Below are positions 1-40,687 of a DNA stretch of 47,664 nucleotides, one piece after another. The stretch spans positions 1 to 47,664 of the forward strand of contig JAOUNA010000005.1 of the NCBI GenBank assembly GCA_029881215.1, read 5' to 3'. Made by a program: the position numbers and the translations under genes. The stretch's first letter is position 1. Each line of letters opens with the position of its first letter. Origin of the DNA: Myxococcales bacterium (lineage in GTDB: Bacteria > Myxococcota_A > UBA9160 > SMWR01). The notes below the pieces were generated by a model. It did no database searches and had not been told where the DNA came from. It saw nothing but the letters and a program-made list of their open reading frames with translations.

Positions 1-224
1 CTGCCGTGATCGCCGCCATGGGGGGCATCCTCTCGGAGGTCGGTGCGGCGCTGATGGTGGGCGCCAACCTCGAAGGCGAGACGCGCGTGCTCACCACGGC
101 CATCGTCATGTACGTCGGCATGGGCGAGTACGAGATGGCGATCGGACTGGCCGCCGTGCTCATGGGACTCATGCTGGTGCTGACAGGCGTCCTCACCGCC
201 GTGCAGCAGAGTGGCCGCAGATGA
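1..224 (+). CDS. tupB: ABC transporter permease C-terminal fragment, tungstate TupB-like (5' end outside window)
   Basis: ORF runs in from the left edge. SEVGAALMVGANLEGETRVLTTAIVMYVGMGEYEMAIGL resembles the C-terminal part of TupB/WtpB permeases, and the stop overlaps the start of an ABC ATPase. Confidence 0.75.
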   Translation, partial: AVIAAMGGILSEVGAALMVGANLEGETRVLTTAIVMYVGMGEYEMAIGLAAVLMGLMLVLTGVLTAVQQSGRR

Positions 225-1303
225 GCGGTGCGGCGCTGCTCTCTGCGCGCGAGCTCCGTGTGGAGCGCCGCTCGCGGCGCGGCTCCTTCACGCTGCAGAT
301 CGACGCGCTCGATCTTCGCGCGGGCGAGGTGCTGGCGATCCTCGGCCCCAACGGGGCCGGCAAGAGCACGCTCTTGCGCGCGCTCGCCGGCCTCGAGCAC
401 CCCGCGCGGGGCGCCATCGATTCCGCGGCCGCCGGCCCCATCACCCTGGTCTTCCAGCGGCCCGCTGCCTTTGCCGGCTCCGTCGCGCACAACGTGGCGG
501 CCGCGCTGCTCGGGCGCGGCCTCGAGCGCGCCCAGCTGGAGCGGCGCGTACGCGAAGCGCTCGAGCGCTTCGAGATCGCGTCGCTCGCGCCGCGCCGCGC
601 CCACACGCTGTCGGGTGGCGAGCTGCGCAGGCTGGCCCTCGCGCGCGCCTTCGTGCTCGCCCCTGCGGTGCTGCTGCTCGACGAGCCCTTCGACGATCTC
701 GACGCGAGCGGCCAGGCATCGCTCTCCCTCGATCTGCGCCGCGCCATCGGCGACACCGGCGTCGCGGTCGCGATGGTCACCCACGATCTGCGCCGCGCGC
801 TGCTCCTGGCCGACCGCATCGCCGTGCTGCTCGAGGGGCGGCTGGCGCAGATCGACCGGCGGGATTCCGTGCTCGAGAAGCCGCGCACGCCCGAGATCGC
901 GCGCGTCGTGGGCATGTCGAACCTGGTGCGCGGTGTCGTCGTCGCAGCGCCGGACGGCGGTCGCCGCGTCGAGGTCGACGCCCACCACGCCATCCCCGTG
1001 CGCACCGCGCTCGAGACGGGGTGCGGCGTCTGGGCGGGCATTCGTCCGGAGCACCTCAAGATCGACGTGGGTCGGGGCGGGAGCGGGATCGCGATCGGGA
1101 AGGCCGTCGTGCGCAGCGTGGTGGACGACGGCGTCGCGGCCAGCGTTGCGCTCGCCTGGGCGGGTGAGGAGCTGCACACCCACCTGCTCGCAGGGCGCGG
1201 CCTGGCCCGCTCTCTCGAGCCCGGCGCTCTCGTCGTGCTGGCGGTCCAGCCGGAGCACGTGCACCTGATTCCCGTCGCCGAGGCGCCGCGCGCGGCGGGC
1301 TAG
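221..1303 (+). CDS. tupC: ABC transporter ATP-binding protein, tungstate/molybdate type with C-terminal TOBE-like region
   Basis: Walker A GPNGAGKST, signature LSGGELRRLALARAF, Walker B VLLLDEPFDDLD. The C-terminal extension (GIRPEHLKI...) is typical of oxyanion importers. Start overlaps the tupB stop. Confidence 0.8.
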   Translation: MSGAALLSARELRVERRSRRGSFTLQIDALDLRAGEVLAILGPNGAGKSTLLRALAGLEHPARGAIDSAAAGPITLVFQRPAAFAGSVAHNVAAALLGRGLERAQLERRVREALERFEIASLAPRRAHTLSGGELRRLALARAFVLAPAVLLLDEPFDDLDASGQASLSLDLRRAIGDTGVAVAMVTHDLRRALLLADRIAVLLEGRLAQIDRRDSVLEKPRTPEIARVVGMSNLVRGVVVAAPDGGRRVEVDAHHAIPVRTALETGCGVWAGIRPEHLKIDVGRGGSGIAIGKAVVRSVVDDGVAASVALAWAGEELHTHLLAGRGLARSLEPGALVVLAVQPEHVHLIPVAEAPRAAG

Positions 1304-1314
1304 CGCCGCGCGCG
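1287..1314 (+). terminator. Strong GC hairpin at the end of tupC (11-bp perfect stem, 6-nt loop)
   Basis: CGCGCGCGGCG (1287-1297) / GGCTAG loop / CGCCGCGCGCG (1304-1314). The loop contains the tupC stop codon. No T-tract. Lies between convergent tupC and metF. Confidence 0.55.
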
Positions 1315-1336
1315 TTCCGCATGCCCGGCCGGGAGC

Positions 1337-2203
1337 TCAGAGACCGAGCGTCTCGCGCAGCGCCACCAACACCTCGCGGGTCGCCGGCGATCGGTTCAGC
1401 GTGTAGAAGTGGATGCCCGGCGCGCCGTGCTGGAGCAGATCTGCGCACTGCGCGGTGGCGTGGCGCACGCCGATGTCGTGGACCGCATCCGCATCGTCCG
1501 CGACCGCCTCGAGCTCGCGCGCGAGGGCTTCGGGGATGCGATTGCCGTTGAGCGCGGCGATGCGCTGGATGCCCTTCACGCTGGTGATGGGCATGATGCC
1601 GGGCACGATGGGCACACCGATGCCGGCCGCCCGGGCCCGCTCGACGTACCGCAGGAAATCCTCGTTGTCGAAGAAGAGCTGCGTCAGCAGGAATTCGCAG
1701 CCGGCGTCGACCTTGAGGCGGGCGTGTGCGATCTCGGCGTCCCAGTCGGGCGACTCCGGGTGCATCTCGGGGTGCGCCGCGCCGCCGACGCACAGGCCGA
1801 ATTCGCGCGCGAAGGCGGCCAGGTCCGAGGCGTGCTGGAAGTCTCGCGGCGCGTGGGCGCCGCCGGCCGCCGGCAGATCGCCGCGCAGGGCGAGAATGTT
1901 CGCCACGCCGCCGATGCACAGCGCATCCAGCACGCCGCGCATCTCGTCGCGCGAATAGCCCATCGTCACGACGTGGGCCATCGACTCCACCTTGACTTCC
2001 TGCTCGATGCGCGCGATCAGGGCGAAGGTCAGCGGGCGTCGGTCCTTGGCGAGCGGACAGGTGACCGAGACGTAGTCGGGCGCGAGTCGCGCCAGATCTC
2101 GGATCGTCTCGAGCAGCTCGTTGGCGGCGACCAGATTGCGCGGCGGAAAGAACTCGAAGGAGAAGATGGGTCGCCGCTGCGCGTAGAGATCGGCGATGCG
2201 CAT
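1337..2203 (-). CDS. metF: 5,10-methylenetetrahydrofolate reductase
   Basis: MRIADLYAQRRPIFSFEFFPPRN...YVSVTCPLAKDR...ALRGDLP...FLLTQLFFDNEDF...VPGIMPI is a classical MetF. ATG at 2203 overlaps the menE stop. Confidence 0.93.
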   Translation of the reverse strand: MRIADLYAQRRPIFSFEFFPPRNLVAANELLETIRDLARLAPDYVSVTCPLAKDRRPLTFALIARIEQEVKVESMAHVVTMGYSRDEMRGVLDALCIGGVANILALRGDLPAAGGAHAPRDFQHASDLAAFAREFGLCVGGAAHPEMHPESPDWDAEIAHARLKVDAGCEFLLTQLFFDNEDFLRYVERARAAGIGVPIVPGIMPITSVKGIQRIAALNGNRIPEALARELEAVADDADAVHDIGVRHATAQCADLLQHGAPGIHFYTLNRSPATREVLVALRETLGL

Positions 2204-3705
2204 CACTCGTTTGCTCCGTGATCGTCGTGTTGCATTTCGAGCAGCCGGTGGCGCTGCAGCTTGCCGGCCGCGTTGCGCGGCAGGGAGGTCGCGCGGTAGA
2301 AGGCCAGGGGAACCTTGTAGCCGGCCAGCCGCTCGCGGCAGAACGCGCGCAGCTCGCGCGCCGAGGGCGCGTCTGCGCCGGGGCGCGGCACCCACCAGGC
2401 GGCGGGTCGCCGGCCGTACTCGTCGTCGTCGACACCGGTCACCCCGACGTCTGCAATGGCGGGGTGCTCGCGCAGCGCCGCCTCCACCTCCGCCGGGTAC
2501 ACGTTCTCGCCGCCCGAGATGATGAGGTCGCTGCGGCGATCGAAGACGCGGAGCCGACCCTCCGCATCGAGTGCGCCCATGTCGCCCGTGCGCAGCCACC
2601 CGTCGCGCAAGCTCGTGCCCTCGCCTTCGGGCTCGCGGATGTAGCCCGACATGACGCTCGGGCTCTTCACCCAGATCTCGCCCTCGACGCCGGTCGGCAC
2701 GGGCGCACCGCGCGCGTCCACGATGCGCAGCTCCGTGCCGAGCAGCGGCGTTAATCCCGCGTCCGGACCGCCCTCCTCGCAGGCCGGGCGCGTCGCCACC
2801 TGGGACGCCGCCTCCGTCAAGCCGTAGGTGAGCGCGATCGGGAAGCGGCGCGCGCGCGCGCGCTCGAAGATCTCGCGGGAGCAGGGTCCGCCCCCGATCA
2901 GTGCGCAGCGCAGATGCGCGGGCGCGTCGCGCCCGCCGCGCGCCTCGAGCACGCGTTGCAGCATCGTCGCGGTGAGTGAGACGTGCGTGACGCGCTCCGT
3001 GTCGATGGACCGGTTCACGGCGTCGGCATCGAAACGGCGGTGCAACAGCGTCGACGTGCCGCAGAGGACGCCGCGCAGCAGGATGGAGAGCCCGCCCACG
3101 TGGAAGAGGGGCAGGCAGGCGAGCCAGTGGTCGTCGCGATGCACCCCGAGGTGCATCGATGCGCTGACGGCGCTCCACAGAAAATTGTCGCGGCTCAGGC
3201 AGGCGCCCCTCGGGCGCCCGGTGGTTCCCGAGGTGTAGAGAATCGCGAGGGGGGCGGCTGTGCCCGCGCGGGGGGCGAGCGGCTCCAGGTGGATCGGCGC
3301 GGTCGTATCGTCGAGCGCGTCGGCCGAGACGCGCTCCACCCCCGGTGCCATCCTCGCGGTGACGGCCGCTGTTTCCGCCAGGGCCTCGCTCCCGTGGAGC
3401 AGCAGCCGCGCGCCGCTGTCGCCCAGCTGGAAGCACAGCTCGCGCGGGCTGAGGCGCACGTTCAGCGGAAGCAGCGTCGCGCCGCAGGCGTCGAGCGCGT
3501 GCAAAATTTCGACGAAGCGCAGCTCGTTCTCGAGAAGCACGGCGACGACGTCTCCGCAGCGCACGCCGCGTGCGCGCAGCGCCGCGGCGAGGTGGCGCAC
3601 GCGCAGCGCGAGCGCTCCGAAGCGGAGGGTCGCTCCGTCCACATGCAGCGCAGCGCGGTCCGGCGTGACCGCGGCGCGCTCGAAGAGCCAGGGAGCGTTC
3701 AGCAT
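2203..3705 (-). CDS. menE: o-succinylbenzoate--CoA ligase
   Basis: AMP-binding motif ILYTSGTTGRPRGACLS, YGLTEAASQVAT, GWLRTGDMG...DRRSDLIISGGENVYPAEVE; located inside the men gene array. Confidence 0.88.
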   Translation of the reverse strand: MLNAPWLFERAAVTPDRAALHVDGATLRFGALALRVRHLAAALRARGVRCGDVVAVLLENELRFVEILHALDACGATLLPLNVRLSPRELCFQLGDSGARLLLHGSEALAETAAVTARMAPGVERVSADALDDTTAPIHLEPLAPRAGTAAPLAILYTSGTTGRPRGACLSRDNFLWSAVSASMHLGVHRDDHWLACLPLFHVGGLSILLRGVLCGTSTLLHRRFDADAVNRSIDTERVTHVSLTATMLQRVLEARGGRDAPAHLRCALIGGGPCSREIFERARARRFPIALTYGLTEAASQVATRPACEEGGPDAGLTPLLGTELRIVDARGAPVPTGVEGEIWVKSPSVMSGYIREPEGEGTSLRDGWLRTGDMGALDAEGRLRVFDRRSDLIISGGENVYPAEVEAALREHPAIADVGVTGVDDDEYGRRPAAWWVPRPGADAPSARELRAFCRERLAGYKVPLAFYRATSLPRNAAGKLQRHRLLEMQHDDHGANE

Positions 3706-30647: not shown

Positions 30648-31402
30648 CGCGCCTCGGCGGCCCGCGCCTCGGCGAGGGCGCGCTGCAGCTGATCGGCCCA
30701 GTACTCGAACGCACCCAGCACGTCGCTCCAGCTCTCGTCCACACCCTCGAGCCGCTTGCCGCCCTGGCGCCGGTCGACCACGGCCACCAGCAACGTGTCG
30801 CTGGGGGCATCCACGATGCGCGCCTCGATGCCCGCGCTGCCCACGAAGGCCTGGGTGCCCGTGGTGAGTCGCTTGAGCTCGGAGATCGGGCGGATCGGCA
30901 GCGCCGAGGAGAGCGTGTTGAGCACCACGTCCGAGCGCCGCGCCTCGGTCAGCGCCACCTGCACGCGCAGCACACCGCTGCCGGGGCGCTGCACCAGCGT
31001 GTAGTCGCTCTCGAGGTGCCTCACCATCGCGGCGTACAGGTGATTGGCCAGCGTCTCGAGATCTTCGCGGGGCAGGTCGTGCAGCGCCGTGCCCACGCCG
31101 TAGTACACCACGACCGGGTCGATCAGGACCCTGTCGTAGCTGCCCAGTCGCGCGCCGGGCTTCACGTAGGAGAGGGCGGCTCCATCCGATCCCTGCCGAG
31201 GCGTGAGGAGGCTGTAATCCCGGAGGAAGCCCGAGTAGCCCAGCGGCTGGGCCGGCTCGGTGGTCGCACACGCCCCGATGCCGAGTGCCAGCGCGCAGCA
31301 CGCGATGCCTCGCGTCCAAGGGTTGCCGCCGCTCGCTGCGCGCGGTCTCCGGCGCAGTCCCGATCTGCTCCGCTGCGCCGCCAGCTTCGCCTTCTCGCGC
31401 AT
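30644..31402 (-). CDS. Putative lipoprotein, DUF3313-like
   Basis: Lipobox-like ALGIGACATT; YSGFLRDYSLLTPRQGSDGAALSYVKPGARLGSYDRVLIDPVVVY...ADQLQRALAEA. Confidence 0.65.
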   Translation of the reverse strand: MREKAKLAAQRSRSGLRRRPRAASGGNPWTRGIACCALALGIGACATTEPAQPLGYSGFLRDYSLLTPRQGSDGAALSYVKPGARLGSYDRVLIDPVVVYYGVGTALHDLPREDLETLANHLYAAMVRHLESDYTLVQRPGSGVLRVQVALTEARRSDVVLNTLSSALPIRPISELKRLTTGTQAFVGSAGIEARIVDAPSDTLLVAVVDRRQGGKRLEGVDESWSDVLGAFEYWADQLQRALAEARAAEAR

Positions 31403-31538
31403 GGTCTCTCCGTCCCGTTGCCGTGTTGTCGCGCTCGCCCGCCCGGTGGGGGCGCGCACCGATGCTAGCTCGGCGCGGCGCTCGCCGTACCGGTTTGCCA
31501 GCCGCGCGGCGCGCGCCTACCGTGCGGCAATCGGAGCC

Positions 31539-33764
31539 ATGAGCGAAGCAGGCACGGCCGATCTCGTGCTCGTCGGGGGCGGGCACGCCCACGTGCAGGT
31601 GCTGCGCCGCGTGGCGATGGCGCCGCTCCCCGGTGTGCGGCTCTGCGTGGTGCTCGACCGTCCCGTCGCTGTGTACTCCGGCATGGTGCCCGGCTGCCTC
31701 GCCGGCGACTACGCGGCCCACGAGCTCGAGATCGACGTGCTGCCCCTGGCGCGCCGCGCGGGCGCGCGCGTGCTGCTCGCTGCCGCCACGGGCATCGACG
31801 TGAAGCGCCGGCGCATCGCGCTCGAGGGTCGGCCCCCGGTCGTGTACGACGTGGCGAGCTTCGACGTGGGCTCGGGCGTGCGCGGCCTCGATCTGCCCGG
31901 CGTGCGCGAGCACGCCCTCGCCACGCGGCCCATTGGCCACTTCGTCGCGCACATCGAGGAGCGCCTGCGGGAGGCGGCGCGCGATCCCGGCGCGCCGCCG
32001 CTGCGCATCGCCGTGGTCGGTGCAGGCGCCGCCGGGCTCGAGCTGGCGTGCGCGCTGCGCGCGCGGCTGCGCACGGCCCAGCGCGCGGCACAGATCCATC
32101 TGGTGAGCGACAGCGCGCGCGTGCTCGAGGATCAGCCGCCGCGCATCTCGCGCCGGGCTGCGCGCGCGGTCGCGCTGCGCGGCGTCGAGCTTCACCTGGG
32201 TATGCGCGTCGCGCACGTCGAGGCGGGCGTCGTGTTCTTCGAGGATGGCGGCCGTCTGGCCTGCGACGAGATCGTCTGGGCGACCGGCGCGGCGCCTCAC
32301 GCCTGGCTGGCCGCCTCGGCGCTTCCGGTGGACGCGCGCGGCTTCGTGCGCATCGAATCGACGCTCCAGGTCGTCGGGCATCCCGACCTCTTCGCCGCCG
32401 GGGACTGCGCTTCGTACGCGGATCACGCCTGGGTGCGCAAGGCGGGCGTGTACGCGGTGCGTCAGGGTCCGCTGCTCGACGCCAATCTGCGCGCGCGCCT
32501 GCGCGGCGAGGGATTGCGCGCGCAGCGTCCACAGCGCGACTTCCTGACGCTGCTCAATCTGGGTGGGGGCGAGGCGCTGGCTGCCAAGTGGGGGCTCGCC
32601 GCTCAGGGGCGCGCCGTGTGGCGCGTCAAGGACTGGATCGACCGGCGCTTCGTGCGGCGCTTCCAGGTGCTCGCCGCGGACGCGGCGCCCGCGGCCGGCT
32701 TCCCGCGCCCGCGGCGCATGAAGCGGGAGGCGATGACGTGCGGGGGCTGCGCCGCGAAGCTCGCGGCGCCGGCCCTGTCCCGCGCGCTCGATCGCCTGCC
32801 TCCCGCGCCCGCGGATCCGTCGGTGTGCCTCGGATTGGCCCGACCCGACGATGCCGCTGCGCTGACGCTTCCGCGGGGCGACGTGCTGCTGGCGAGCCTC
32901 GACGCGTTTCGCGCCTTCTGCGACGACGCCTGGCTCGTGGGTCGCGTGGCGGCGGTGAACGCAATCTCCGACGTCTTCGCGACCGGCGGTCGGCCGCGTC
33001 ACGCGCTCGCCCTCGTCACCTTGCCCGAAACCGATCTGGCGCGCGCGGAGGAGACGCTCTACCAGGTGCTGTCGGGGGTGCGCGAATCCCTCGATCCTCT
33101 GCGCGTGTCGCTGGTCGGTGGCCACACCACCCGGGGCGATGCGCTGCTCGTGGGTCTGGCCGTCACCGGCACGCTGGAACCGGGGCAGTCGCTCTTGTCT
33201 CTCGACGGGCTGCGGCCCGGACAGCATCTCCTGCTCAGCAAGGCGCTCGGCACGGGCGTGGTGCTGGCGGCGGATCGGCAGGGACTGGCGCGCGGGGTCT
33301 GGCTGCAGGGTGCGTTCGCGTCGATGCTGCGCCCCAACGACGCCGCGCTGCGCGTGGCGCGGAGCTTCGACGCGGCGGCCTGCACCGACGTGACCGGCTT
33401 TGGTCTGCTGGGCCATCTGTGTGAGATGCTGCGCGCGAGCCGCGCCTCGGCCCGGCTGCGGCTCGACGCGCTGCCGGCGCTCGACGGCGCGCTCGCGCTG
33501 CTGGCGCGCGGCGTGCGCAGCAGCGCCCACGCGCAGAACGCGCTGGCGCTGTCCGTGCTCGCCGGCGGGGCGCCGGGCGAGCCGCGCGCCGCCGCGGAGC
33601 TGCTCTGCGACCCCCAGACGTCCGGGGGGCTTCTGTTCGGGGTCGCGGCGGAGCGCTCCGCACAGGCGCTCGACGCCCTGCGCGCCGCCGGAGAGAGCGG
33701 GGCGGCGGCCATCGGGGAGGTGCTCCCGGTGCGCCGCGACGGCGCTCTCGTCGAGCTCGTCTGA
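31539..33764 (+). CDS. selD: FAD-dependent oxidoreductase fused to selenide,water dikinase
   Basis: N-terminal LVLVGGGHAHVQVLRRVAM...IAVVGAGAAGLELACAL...LFAAGDCA. C-terminal MTCGGCAAKLAAPALSRAL...NAISDVFATGGRPRHALAL...VGGHTTRG...DVTGFGLLGHLCEM...DPQTSGGLL. Confidence 0.9.
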   Translation: MSEAGTADLVLVGGGHAHVQVLRRVAMAPLPGVRLCVVLDRPVAVYSGMVPGCLAGDYAAHELEIDVLPLARRAGARVLLAAATGIDVKRRRIALEGRPPVVYDVASFDVGSGVRGLDLPGVREHALATRPIGHFVAHIEERLREAARDPGAPPLRIAVVGAGAAGLELACALRARLRTAQRAAQIHLVSDSARVLEDQPPRISRRAARAVALRGVELHLGMRVAHVEAGVVFFEDGGRLACDEIVWATGAAPHAWLAASALPVDARGFVRIESTLQVVGHPDLFAAGDCASYADHAWVRKAGVYAVRQGPLLDANLRARLRGEGLRAQRPQRDFLTLLNLGGGEALAAKWGLAAQGRAVWRVKDWIDRRFVRRFQVLAADAAPAAGFPRPRRMKREAMTCGGCAAKLAAPALSRALDRLPPAPADPSVCLGLARPDDAAALTLPRGDVLLASLDAFRAFCDDAWLVGRVAAVNAISDVFATGGRPRHALALVTLPETDLARAEETLYQVLSGVRESLDPLRVSLVGGHTTRGDALLVGLAVTGTLEPGQSLLSLDGLRPGQHLLLSKALGTGVVLAADRQGLARGVWLQGAFASMLRPNDAALRVARSFDAAACTDVTGFGLLGHLCEMLRASRASARLRLDALPALDGALALLARGVRSSAHAQNALALSVLAGGAPGEPRAAAELLCDPQTSGGLLFGVAAERSAQALDALRAAGESGAAAIGEVLPVRRDGALVELV

Positions 33765-37005: not shown

Positions 37006-38043
37006 TCAGTCGATCAGCGCACCGGGCGCATCCGCGATGAAGTCGGAGCGGATCGGCTGGTCGCGATCGAGGGCGACCCAGCCGGACGCGAAGCCCGCTT
37101 CGTTCGCCTGCTCGCGGGCGCTCAGGTAGACCTCGAAGCTGTCGTCCCAGACGTAGTACTGGAAGTACGTCCGGTGCGGGTGCAGCAGCGAGAGGTCGCG
37201 CCGGTAGAGGGACTCGCGCTGCACGATTTCCTCGAGCGTCTCGCCGTGCGTCACGTCCCGCCATTCCAGCTGTCCGTAGAACTGGTCGGGGCCCAGGTTG
37301 AGCACGTGCCAGCGCAGCGCGCGCGTGCCGAGATCGTTGCGCTGGAAGTGGCTCACCACGCGGTTGCGGTCGAGGGCGAGCGGCACCGGGCGCTCCAGGC
37401 TCCAGCGCCCCGCCGACGCGTCGAGCAGGCCACGATTCAGCGCGGCGAAGAGCTCGTCCGTGCGCACGCGGAAGATGCGCCCGTAGCGCGCGAAGTAGAC
37501 GATGCGCGTGGCGCCTGGCGGCGGCGGGCGCGGATCCGGCAGGCGCGCTTCGTGACGCGCGGCCCGCGCCCCGCTGTCCGCCAGCTGCGCGTCGAGCGCG
37601 CCGATGCGGGTGCGCAGTGCGGCGATCTCGTCCTCGAGCGCCCGCGCCCGGCGCCGCGTCTCCGCGGTGCGCTCGTGGAAGCTGGCCGGATCTGCGGCCG
37701 CGGCCGCCTCGATGCGGGCGCGGCTCTCGGAGATCTCGGCGTGCAGCAGCGCCAGCGCGTCGCGCCGCGCGCGGTGCGCGTCGGTCAGCTCGCCGCGGCG
37801 GGGCAGCAGCGGTGCGAGCGCGGCGCTGATGCGATCCGCCTCGGCGCGGGTCAGCTCGAGCGCCTCGCGCGTCAGCTCGGGGCGCGCCGCCATCTCCGCG
37901 CGCAGCCGCTTCATCGCGTCGCCAACGCTGATCTGGGTCACCGCCAGGAGCACCACGAGGATGCCGGTCACGTTGGCCATGGTGTCGAGCAGTGAATCGA
38001 GATTCTGGACGTCGGCGCGGTGTCGGGTGCGGCGGGTGGCCAC
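37006..38043 (-). CDS. ExbD/MotB-like stator subunit A: single N-terminal TM retaining Asp, coiled coil, periplasmic domain
   Basis: MATRRTRHRADVQNLDSLLDTMANVTGILVVLLAVTQIS (TM with LLDTM), then a charged coiled coil and an uncharacterised C-terminal domain; third gene after a MotA/TolQ/ExbB homologue. Confidence 0.65.
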   Translation of the reverse strand: MATRRTRHRADVQNLDSLLDTMANVTGILVVLLAVTQISVGDAMKRLRAEMAARPELTREALELTRAEADRISAALAPLLPRRGELTDAHRARRDALALLHAEISESRARIEAAAAADPASFHERTAETRRRARALEDEIAALRTRIGALDAQLADSGARAARHEARLPDPRPPPPGATRIVYFARYGRIFRVRTDELFAALNRGLLDASAGRWSLERPVPLALDRNRVVSHFQRNDLGTRALRWHVLNLGPDQFYGQLEWRDVTHGETLEEIVQRESLYRRDLSLLHPHRTYFQYYVWDDSFEVYLSAREQANEAGFASGWVALDRDQPIRSDFIADAPGALID

Positions 38044-38047
38044 GCGC

Positions 38048-38833
38048 TCAGCCTCCCGCGCCGCGCAGCAGCGAGAAATCGAGCGCCCCGTCCCCCGGCA
38101 GGGGGATCTCTCCGTAGCGCTGGCGCAGCACGCCCGCCTGGATCGCCGCCTGCCGGCAGGTCGCTACCCCGCCCGGCCGGATCATGAAGACGACGGTGGC
38201 CCCCTCGGCGTTCTGCACGCTGCGCAGGAAGCGGCGGTACTCCGCACTCGTGGCGATGCGGTGCATCGGCACCTCGGTGCGCTGCCGCGCGCGGCCTTCG
38301 TAGAGCACCAGCGCGTCGCTGCGGCACTCGGCGAAGTGCGGGTCGAGGCCGTAGCCGCTGCCGGAGGGCTGGATCAGGATCGGCGCCGCGGCGCGCGCCT
38401 GCCGGCGACGCTCGAGTGCGTCGCGCCGCTCACGCGCGCTGGCCTCGAGGGCGTCGCGCGTGTCCGCGAGGGCCTCCAGTCGGTCCTGCTCGCGCGCGAG
38501 TGCCTCGCGCAGCGGCGCGCTGCTCTCGAGCCGCGCGCGGGCCTGCTCCGCCGCGCCCGCCAGCCGCACCTGCTCCTGGCGCGCCGCACCGATCTGCGCG
38601 TCGAGGGCGTCGATCTCCTCGGCCAGCGCCGTCAGCTCCGCGAGCTGGCGGCGGCCCGCGGCGAGGTCGCGCTCCATGCGCTCGAACTGCTCGAGATCGA
38701 TGGCGCCGCGCGCGACCTGCCCGATCGCCGTCGCGGCGATCATCAGGGTGAGCGCGCCGATCACGCAGGCCAGCACGCTCAGGAAGGGAAAGAGCGAGAC
38801 GGCGGGGTGGCTGCGCTTGCGCGGGCGCGCCAC
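38048..38833 (-). CDS. ExbD/MotB-like stator subunit B: single N-terminal TM with Ser at the Asp position, coiled coil, periplasmic domain
   Basis: MARPRKRSHPAVSLFPFLSVLACVIGALTLMIAATAIGQ, then a coiled coil and a domain ending VVFMIRPGGVATCRQAAIQAGVLRQRYGEIPLPGDGALDFSLL. Confidence 0.65.
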   Translation of the reverse strand: MARPRKRSHPAVSLFPFLSVLACVIGALTLMIAATAIGQVARGAIDLEQFERMERDLAAGRRQLAELTALAEEIDALDAQIGAARQEQVRLAGAAEQARARLESSAPLREALAREQDRLEALADTRDALEASARERRDALERRRQARAAAPILIQPSGSGYGLDPHFAECRSDALVLYEGRARQRTEVPMHRIATSAEYRRFLRSVQNAEGATVVFMIRPGGVATCRQAAIQAGVLRQRYGEIPLPGDGALDFSLLRGAGG

Positions 38834-38836
38834 GGA

Positions 38837-40687
38837 TCAGCGCCTGCGCAGGAATCGCCACAGCGCGGCGCGTGAGGGCGCGGGCGCGCCCGCGGTCTCA
38901 CGCGCGCTGTGTTCGAGCTGGGCGAGCTGTCCGCGCCACGGCGCCGTGAGCTCGCGGGCGACGGCCTCGAGTCGATCGGCCAGCGCCGGCGGCAGCGCGT
39001 CGAGGGAGTCCGAGAACCGCTGCTGCGCCGCGCGCGCCTCGCCGCGCAGCGCGTTCAACGTGCGCGCGAGATCTTCGGACGCGCTGCGCAGCGCCGCGAC
39101 CTGGGCTTCCTGCAGCGCGGCCGCCTGGCGCAGGCCCGTCTCGCGTCCGCGCTCGAGCGCGTCGAGCTGCTCGGCCCCCTCCAGGAGTCGCGCCGCGGTG
39201 CTCTGCTCGACGCGTCCGAGCTGCGCGTCGATGTGCTCGAGCGTGGTCGCAAGGCGTCCGGCGGAGTCGCGCAGCTGGTGCGCCTGCTCTTCCTGCGCGG
39301 CCACGAGCTCGCGCTGCAGCGCGTGCGCGTCGCGCGCGATCTCGGCGAGCCGCGTGGCGAATCCGGCCAGCTGCTGGCCGCTCTCCTCGCGCAGCTCCGC
39401 CGCCTCGCCGCGAATCCGCGCCAGCGTGTGCGCGAGCTGATCGCCGGCCGCGGTCAGGGTCTGGGCCTGACTGCGGTGCGCCTCCGTCGCGGCCTGCTGT
39501 TCTTCCTGCACGCGCCGGTGCAGTCGCTCGATGCCGGCGAGCTGATCGTCGAGGCGGTGCGCGCCTTCTGCCTGGATGCGCCGCGCCTCCGCCGCCATGC
39601 CCTCGAGCGAGCTGCGGAAGTCGCGCAGCAACCCGCGCTGCGTCTCGGCGAGCTCGTCGCTCGCCTCGCGCTGCCGCTCCATCGCCCAGTGTGCGAGCCG
39701 ATCCATCTGCTGGTCCTGACGCAGGCGCAGCTGCTCGTCGATCTTCTCCCATCCCGAGACGACGTGGGCCGTGAGCGTCTCGCCGATCTGACCGAGGCGG
39801 TCGAGCCAGCCGCGCAGCTCGCTGTGGTGGGCCGCCATCTCGCGCGCGATGGCGTGCTCGATCGCGCCTTCCTCCGGGTGGATGCCGCGCCGCGCGTCGT
39901 CGAGGCGCCGCACCAGGCGCTGGTCGCAGTACTCCTCGACGGCCGCCAGGAAGTCTTCTTCGGCCTTCTGCAGCCAGCTGGCCGGAAACATGATCAGGAT
40001 GCTCATCACCAGCGCGAGCAGCGTGGTGTCGAAGGCGACCGCGAGCCCCGTGGTCACGCTGCCGATCGAGTTCTTCATCACCTCGAGATCGACCGCCGCG
40101 CCGACGGACGCCGAGAAGCCGCCGACCGCGGCGCCGATGCCGATCACCGTGCCGATGAAGCCGAGGATCGGCACCGCCCAGATGAACACACGCACCATGG
40201 TGTAGCTCGACTCGACCGCGTCGGCGTCGATCTGGGCCTGACTCGAGAGCTGATCCACCACCTCGCGGGCGTCGCGGCGCGCCTCGAAGTGGTGCAGCGC
40301 GCGGCGGATGCGCTCGACCAGCGCGTTGCCGCGCGCGGAGGCGGGCAGCTCGTCGAGCTGGGCGGCGAAGGCGGCGGCGTTGTCCGGCGTGATGCGCGCG
40401 CCGATGCGCTCGGGCAGCAGGTCGAGCTCGAGCGCTTCCCGCTGGCGCGCGATGCGTCGATACTTCAGCAGCAACATCACCGCCGCCCAGAAGGACAGGT
40501 ACGAGACGACGTAGGGCACCCAGCCGCGGGCGCCGAAGAGCTCGCCCAGGTAGGTGCCGGAGAGCGGGAACACGACGGCCGCGTAGAAGACGAGCGTCGC
40601 CACCAGCGCCGCCGCGCCCGTTACGGACAGTCGCAGGTCTGTGCGGCCGCTGGCGCGCCGCCCGTCTCGTGCTGCTCGGTTTGACAT
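38837..40687 (-). CDS. MotA/TolQ/ExbB-family proton channel with long C-terminal cytoplasmic coiled-coil tail
   Basis: TM segments LRLSVTGAAALVATLVFYAAVVF and YVVSYLSFWAAVMLLL, plus the channel core VFIWAVPILGFIGTVIGIGAAVGGFS...GSVTTGLAVAFDTTLLALVMSILIMFPAS, then roughly 360 aa of Glu/Gln/Arg/Ala-rich coiled coil. SD GAAGGAAGG. Confidence 0.85.
   Translation of the reverse strand: MSNRAARDGRRASGRTDLRLSVTGAAALVATLVFYAAVVFPLSGTYLGELFGARGWVPYVVSYLSFWAAVMLLLKYRRIARQREALELDLLPERIGARITPDNAAAFAAQLDELPASARGNALVERIRRALHHFEARRDAREVVDQLSSQAQIDADAVESSYTMVRVFIWAVPILGFIGTVIGIGAAVGGFSASVGAAVDLEVMKNSIGSVTTGLAVAFDTTLLALVMSILIMFPASWLQKAEEDFLAAVEEYCDQRLVRRLDDARRGIHPEEGAIEHAIAREMAAHHSELRGWLDRLGQIGETLTAHVVSGWEKIDEQLRLRQDQQMDRLAHWAMERQREASDELAETQRGLLRDFRSSLEGMAAEARRIQAEGAHRLDDQLAGIERLHRRVQEEQQAATEAHRSQAQTLTAAGDQLAHTLARIRGEAAELREESGQQLAGFATRLAEIARDAHALQRELVAAQEEQAHQLRDSAGRLATTLEHIDAQLGRVEQSTAARLLEGAEQLDALERGRETGLRQAAALQEAQVAALRSASEDLARTLNALRGEARAAQQRFSDSLDALPPALADRLEAVARELTAPWRGQLAQLEHSARETAGAPAPSRAALWRFLRRR

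Follow-up and report, generated by a model that had tools for sequence, protein, structure and literature searches.

We describe three genes, here called A, B and C, that probably encode a proton-driven inner-membrane motor of the 5:2 type in which two unlike plug proteins, B and C, form the central axle as a heterodimer (A5:B1:C1), with one carboxylate and about five protons per turn. They lie on the minus strand of a 47,664-nucleotide stretch from a Myxococcales bacterium (GTDB lineage Myxococcota_A; UBA9160; SMWR01; contig JAOUNA010000005.1 of assembly GCA_029881215.1, positions 1 to 47,664), referred to below as the window, and the proposal is drawn from sequence comparison and structure prediction. 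The genes are tightly packed, with gaps of 3 and 4 bases. Gene A (38,837 to 40,687) encodes a channel subunit of the MotA/TolQ/ExbB family of 616 amino acids with a long C-terminal coiled-coil tail, and its product is a member of PF01618 (E-value 9.2e-10; 38.8 bits, above the Pfam gathering cut-off of 22.9). Gene B (38,048 to 38,833) has a GTG start and encodes 261 amino acids composed of an N-terminal transmembrane (TM) helix, a coiled coil of about 100 residues and a putative TolR-like periplasmic domain. Gene C (37,006 to 38,043), also with a GTG start, encodes 345 amino acids with an N-terminal TM helix, a coiled coil and a periplasmic alpha/beta domain.

The membrane aspartate characteristic of ExbD and TolR is present in C as Asp20 (codon 37,984 to 37,986, within NLDSLLDTMANVTGILVVLLAV), a putative proton carrier, and is absent from B, in which Ser19 (codon 38,777 to 38,779, within SLFPFLSVLACVIGALTLMI) takes its position. 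A preliminary description of this stretch had reported the two proteins, their helices and these two codons exactly as we find them, and its view that Ser19 stands in place of an ExbD-type aspartate is borne out by profile-profile alignment. Using hhalign on the TM parts, VSLFPFLSV of B was matched to INVTPFVDV of ExbD with Ser19 over the aspartate (E-value 0.0012, in a short alignment), NLDSLLDTM of C was matched to NVTPFVDVM of ExbD with Asp20 over the aspartate (E-value 4e-5), and the comparison of B with C placed Ser19 over Asp20 (E-value 1.5e-5). The TM segment of B covers residues 15 to 38 (38,720 to 38,791; motif LFPFLSVLACxIG) and that of C residues 16 to 40 (37,924 to 37,998; motif LDxLLDTMxNVVGIL). 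C carries a second acid, Asp16 (codon 37,996 to 37,998), one helical turn (four residues) before Asp20; no other acidic residue was found deeper in the membrane helix of either protein. The preliminary description was correct in this observation and understated it, as gene A, the spacing of 3 to 4 bases and Asp16 of C were absent from it.

As their profiles show, B and C are paralogues. The full-length profiles match with a probability of 98 and an E-value of 3e-14, to which the coiled coil may contribute part, and the C-terminal domains alone match with an E-value of 1e-6. Cyanobacterial B and C have a short stalk, and a similar RPDxxExFxxARxxxxxxxxxGxEP-like segment closes each of them. Searches against Pfam, NCBIfam and PADLOC assigned no family to B or C, the weak matches resembling coiled-coil noise; neither B nor C of the window gave a match to PF02472, and a PDB sequence search with both profiles returned coiled-coil noise only. 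Among PDB folds, the AlphaFold2 model of B (mean predicted local distance difference test score, pLDDT, 88.9) comes closest to TolR (5by4), at a modest E-value of 0.039 and a probability of 0.91. For the model of C (mean pLDDT 80.7), the fold search gave no convincing PDB match, with TolR 5by4 only at rank 11 (E-value 0.5). Cyanobacterial B proteins give sub-threshold matches to ExbD/TolR models (about 16 bits for PF02472 against a cut-off of 25.4).

These similarities bear on the position of B in the complex. Ton and Tol motors typically comprise three genes, one of them for a separate transducer (PMC12204202), and B could by analogy sit outside the pore and transmit force from the side, as TonB and TolA do, with two copies of C as the plug. 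We regard this arrangement as very improbable, as the TM helix of B aligns to ExbD (PFxDV to PFLSV), B is paralogous to C, both the best PDB fold match of B and the cyanobacterial sub-threshold matches point to TolR or PF02472, and B is without the SHLS/His motif described for transducers.

Relatives of B were identified in 28 of the 91 genomes of the class, and every one of these 28 also carries C. A search beginning from C, which covered the 386 genomes of the organism's own phylum, returned the same 28 genomes and one extra, the latter through only a 50-residue match in a 61-amino-acid frame at a contig end; the remaining hits were weak and coiled-coil-like. B and C thus go together within the class. 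In alignments of 27 same-class sequences each, Ser19 of B and Asp20 of C are present in 27/27, and all 26 complete pairs (the loci where the two sets overlap) are of the Ser/Asp type. The invariant residues of B are Leu14-Phe15-Pro16-Phe17-x-Ser19-Val20-Leu21-Ala22-Cys23-x-Ile25-Gly26-x-Leu28, and conservation in the protein peaks at the motif LFPF(L/M)SVLAC; those of C are Leu18-x-Asp20-Thr21-x-x-Asn24-Val25-x-Gly27-Ile28-Leu29. Nothing else in either protein is conserved as strongly as these stretches, and identity in the class alignments is otherwise about 25-45%.

Scanning genomes with the B alignment left 80 loci, of which some of the Myxococcota type had also come up in the class search. 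They come from Myxococcota, Planctomycetota, Verrucomicrobiota, Lentisphaerota, Cyanobacteria and one gammaproteobacterium (Achromatium); a few contigs of metagenome-assembled genomes, one each under the labels Chloroflexaceae, Spirochaeta and Gracilibacteria, fall within other groups on the tree and could be binning errors. No plasmid copies of B were found. A homologue of A lies upstream of B, and the order A-B-C is kept in all 71 distant loci with the three genes, plainly so in 70, while in the remaining one (L048) B seems to come first only through an upstream stop-to-stop extension. Of the 80 loci, 65 have Ser and 15 have Ala at residue 19 of B; in the 72 distant pairs read, C always has Asp at residue 20 and its B partner Ser or Ala. 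The Ala form is restricted to one planctomycete branch and is explained by one Ser/Ala change on the tree of A. Neither the 80 distant loci nor the 27 class sequences have an acidic residue at position 19 of B. The preliminary description had asked whether the Asp/Ser split holds in orthologous pairs; it does, in the class and, with Ser or Ala, in the distant loci, and the findings it named as contrary, another acid in the B helix or a homologous cassette with Asp in both proteins, did not appear. In the Ala-type planctomycete cassettes (L080-L092, L099, L100), B reaches 620-870 amino acids and contains a Ser/Gly-rich low-complexity region as well as additional C-terminal sequence beyond the TolR-like part.

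This distribution also bears on a motor of composition A5:C2 with two aspartates, in which B would be a proton-dead paralogue that replaces one C, or forms A5:B2, and acts as an off-switch or tuner in the manner of a dominant-negative subunit. Paralogues without the catalytic residue often serve as regulators; C by itself has all that a plug needs, and C homodimers are compatible with the data. Nevertheless, B accompanies C in every complete locus in the fixed order A-B-C, solitary C was not seen in the class, and LFPF(L/M)SVLAC is conserved beyond expectation for a loosely used brake. We therefore consider such a regulatory role for B rather unlikely.

The channel subunit retains both pore threonines. 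Thr180 (GxxGTV; codon 40,148 to 40,150) and Thr222 (AFDTT; codon 40,022 to 40,024) are present in 27/27 class sequences and align with the pore threonines of the TolQ/ExbB-type proteins of the same genome. As both threonines are kept, the proton path of A is likely intact. Asp220 (codon 40,028 to 40,030), two residues before Thr222, is also present in 27/27; this position is hydrophobic in the TolQ/ExbB proteins of the same genome, which instead have Glu where A has Val217. AFDTT is found in most distant loci, and some planctomycetes have AFGTT or AFNTT, in which Asp220 is replaced by Gly or Asn. Separately, the coiled-coil tail of the window protein (38,837 to 39,900, minus strand) and of its nearest relatives is longer than in most other class members.

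These acids raise the alternative that the second carboxylate has been relocated, with Asp16 of C, Asp220 of A or both acting as a second carrier or relay, so that the usual proton number would be kept and all plug acids would lie on one helix. Asp16 is nearly invariant (90% or more) while B has no acid, Asp220 is conserved throughout the class and in most distant loci, at a position that is hydrophobic in the TolQ/ExbB proteins of the window's own genome, and A is without their Glu. However, Asp16 is Gly in the L025/L026 subgroup and Asp220 is Gly or Asn in some planctomycetes, while Asp20 of C does not vary. On these grounds Asp20 is ranked as the only essential proton carrier, and we judge a relocated second acid to be unlikely.

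Since B and C are paralogous and always adjacent, and since their stalks vary together between clades (median B/C lengths of 42/162, 145/269, 154/279 and 207/322 residues), the simplest reading is a B-C axle within a pentamer of A. In the proposed mechanism, Asp20 of C alone would take a proton from the periplasmic half-channel and release it to the cytoplasm. B, itself without a proton site, would add the other helix of the axle, the other strand of the long coiled-coil stalk in the periplasm and a domain resembling TolR. Each A subunit would be pushed only while passing C, giving about five protons and five large steps (about 72 degrees) per turn, as against the usual ten or so protons and ten 36-degree steps. 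The reasoning for 10 ions per turn in 5:2 motors has been given previously (PMC9389320), as has the 36-degree model in which two aspartates exchange protonation (PMC12905483). The two unlike axle strands would additionally let the far end of the stalk bind two different partners. We infer the heterodimer, its stoichiometry, the step size, the direction of force and any action of the stalk from these comparisons. The preliminary description had likewise proposed an obligate heterodimer with one protonatable site, a reading that our comparisons support in part.

Several points weigh against a B-C axle with a single proton site. A shared operon alone is no proof of a mixed dimer, and C could homodimerize. 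The agreement in stalk length consists of four clade medians only, with no consistent trend inside clades, and the text pattern used gave no C length for many loci. Asp16 and Asp20 of C together with the conserved Asp220 of A may raise the number of proton sites per complex above the simple one. Finally, one of the two peptide patterns in the genome scan contained the Ser and so favored Ser-type B; the Ser-free pattern returned Ala-type B and no Asp-type B.

In order to place the asymmetry against ordinary plug proteins, single ExbD/TolR proteins from the same class were read as controls, and Asp was present in 29/29; three tandem ExbD pairs also had Asp in both members. As all controls carry Asp, the asymmetry belongs to particular families and not to the lineage. 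A second asymmetric family was identified in the same genome on contig C97 (positions 1 to 3,491), where a TPR-like and a TolQ-like gene are followed by two ExbD genes, the first encoding Asn (ELDMTTFLNLMVVLVPFLL; 43.7 bits to PF02472) and the second Asp (SLTSLMDVFTILVFFLL). Among relatives of this cassette in the phylum, the first ExbD has Asn in 24 of the 29 loci read and Asp in 5, and the downstream partner, read in 21 Asn loci and 3 Asp loci, has Asp every time. The general statement in the preliminary description that both protomers normally carry the Asp is therefore supported by the controls but goes too far as a rule, given the Asn/Asp pairs of this second family. The C97 TolQ-like protein, like A, is without the TolQ/ExbB Glu, and it has Asn-Thr-Thr where A has Asp-Thr-Thr.

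On the basis of these two families, we tentatively suggest that 5:2 proton motors with an asymmetric axle pair are widespread and have so far escaped recognition, a generalization that we would put at slightly short of even. At least two families, A-B-C with Ser or Ala plus Asp and TPR-TolQ-ExbD-ExbD with Asn plus Asp, would then have settled on an axle with a single carboxylate, which would halve the number of proton sites, lengthen the steps and leave the stalk with two dissimilar strands. If confirmed, the three-gene motor would add a further form to the 5:2 family and be of general relevance. A motor with only half the customary proton sites may already exist in nature, and a natural one-carboxylate axle would allow a test by comparison instead of by crippling a two-site motor. 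It would also provide a starting hypothesis for the gene trios, present in several phyla, whose plug proteins are assigned to no Pfam family.

An all-against-all comparison of the genes flanking the cassette loci found none common to the loci as a whole; most clusters were confined to one taxon, and the only cluster spanning phyla resembles a common response-regulator family. No TPR or vWA gene was recognized as a conserved neighbor of A-B-C. In the group L042-L057, a divergent gene of about 420 amino acids with one TM segment adjoins the cassette in 16 Myxococcota-type loci and was not found at loci from other phyla. Elsewhere in the window, a long open reading frame on the plus strand (31,260 to 33,764) resembles, on reading by eye, a fusion of a pyridine-nucleotide oxidoreductase with a SelD-like selenide water dikinase.

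Among known systems, the ExbBD and TolQR motors of the Ton and Tol-Pal systems (PF01618 plus PF02472) share with A-B-C a channel subunit with two pore threonines and single-TM plugs that bear a PFx(D)V motif, and putatively also a periplasmic domain of the TolR kind. They differ in having one plug gene, whose product forms a homodimer with two aspartates, whereas A-B-C has two paralogous plugs, one of them with Ser or Ala, and a coiled-coil stalk of about 100 residues. The AglRQS gliding motor of Myxococcus xanthus is similar in that a single MotA-like protein is accompanied by two distinct plugs. AglQ and AglS both have the conserved Asp, and whether an AglQ-AglS heterodimer forms is not known (PMC9389320). 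In contrast, B has Ser, and B and C fall below the PF02472 threshold. A published arrangement of a tolQ-like gene with two unlike tolR-like genes resembles A-B-C, and the C97 cassette has the same look; the passages available from that paper do not discuss an Asp asymmetry in the pair. TPH-vWA motors have a vWA domain in the plug and one Asp per monomer (PMC12204202), whereas neither B nor C gave a vWA match and B is without the Asp. ZorAB of the Zorya defense system is similar in its MotA-like protein with a long cytoplasmic coiled-coil tail. Assignment to Zorya was rejected, as A scored 16.3 bits with the NCBIfam ZorA model against a cut-off of 100 and no OmpA-like domain is present in B or C; several weak ZorA-like matches fall within the coiled-coil tail of A. 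The literature searched, which excluded most subscription papers, gave no previous mention of heterologous TolR pairs in which one Asp is missing. A parallel in principle is provided by the c/c'' rings of V-ATPases, in which proton-site units have been duplicated and part of the carboxylates lost, with fewer protons per turn. These proteins are unrelated to A-B-C and the likeness is of principle only; if the one-carboxylate axle is correct, the gear ratio would be evolvable in the 5:2 family as it is in rotary ATPases.
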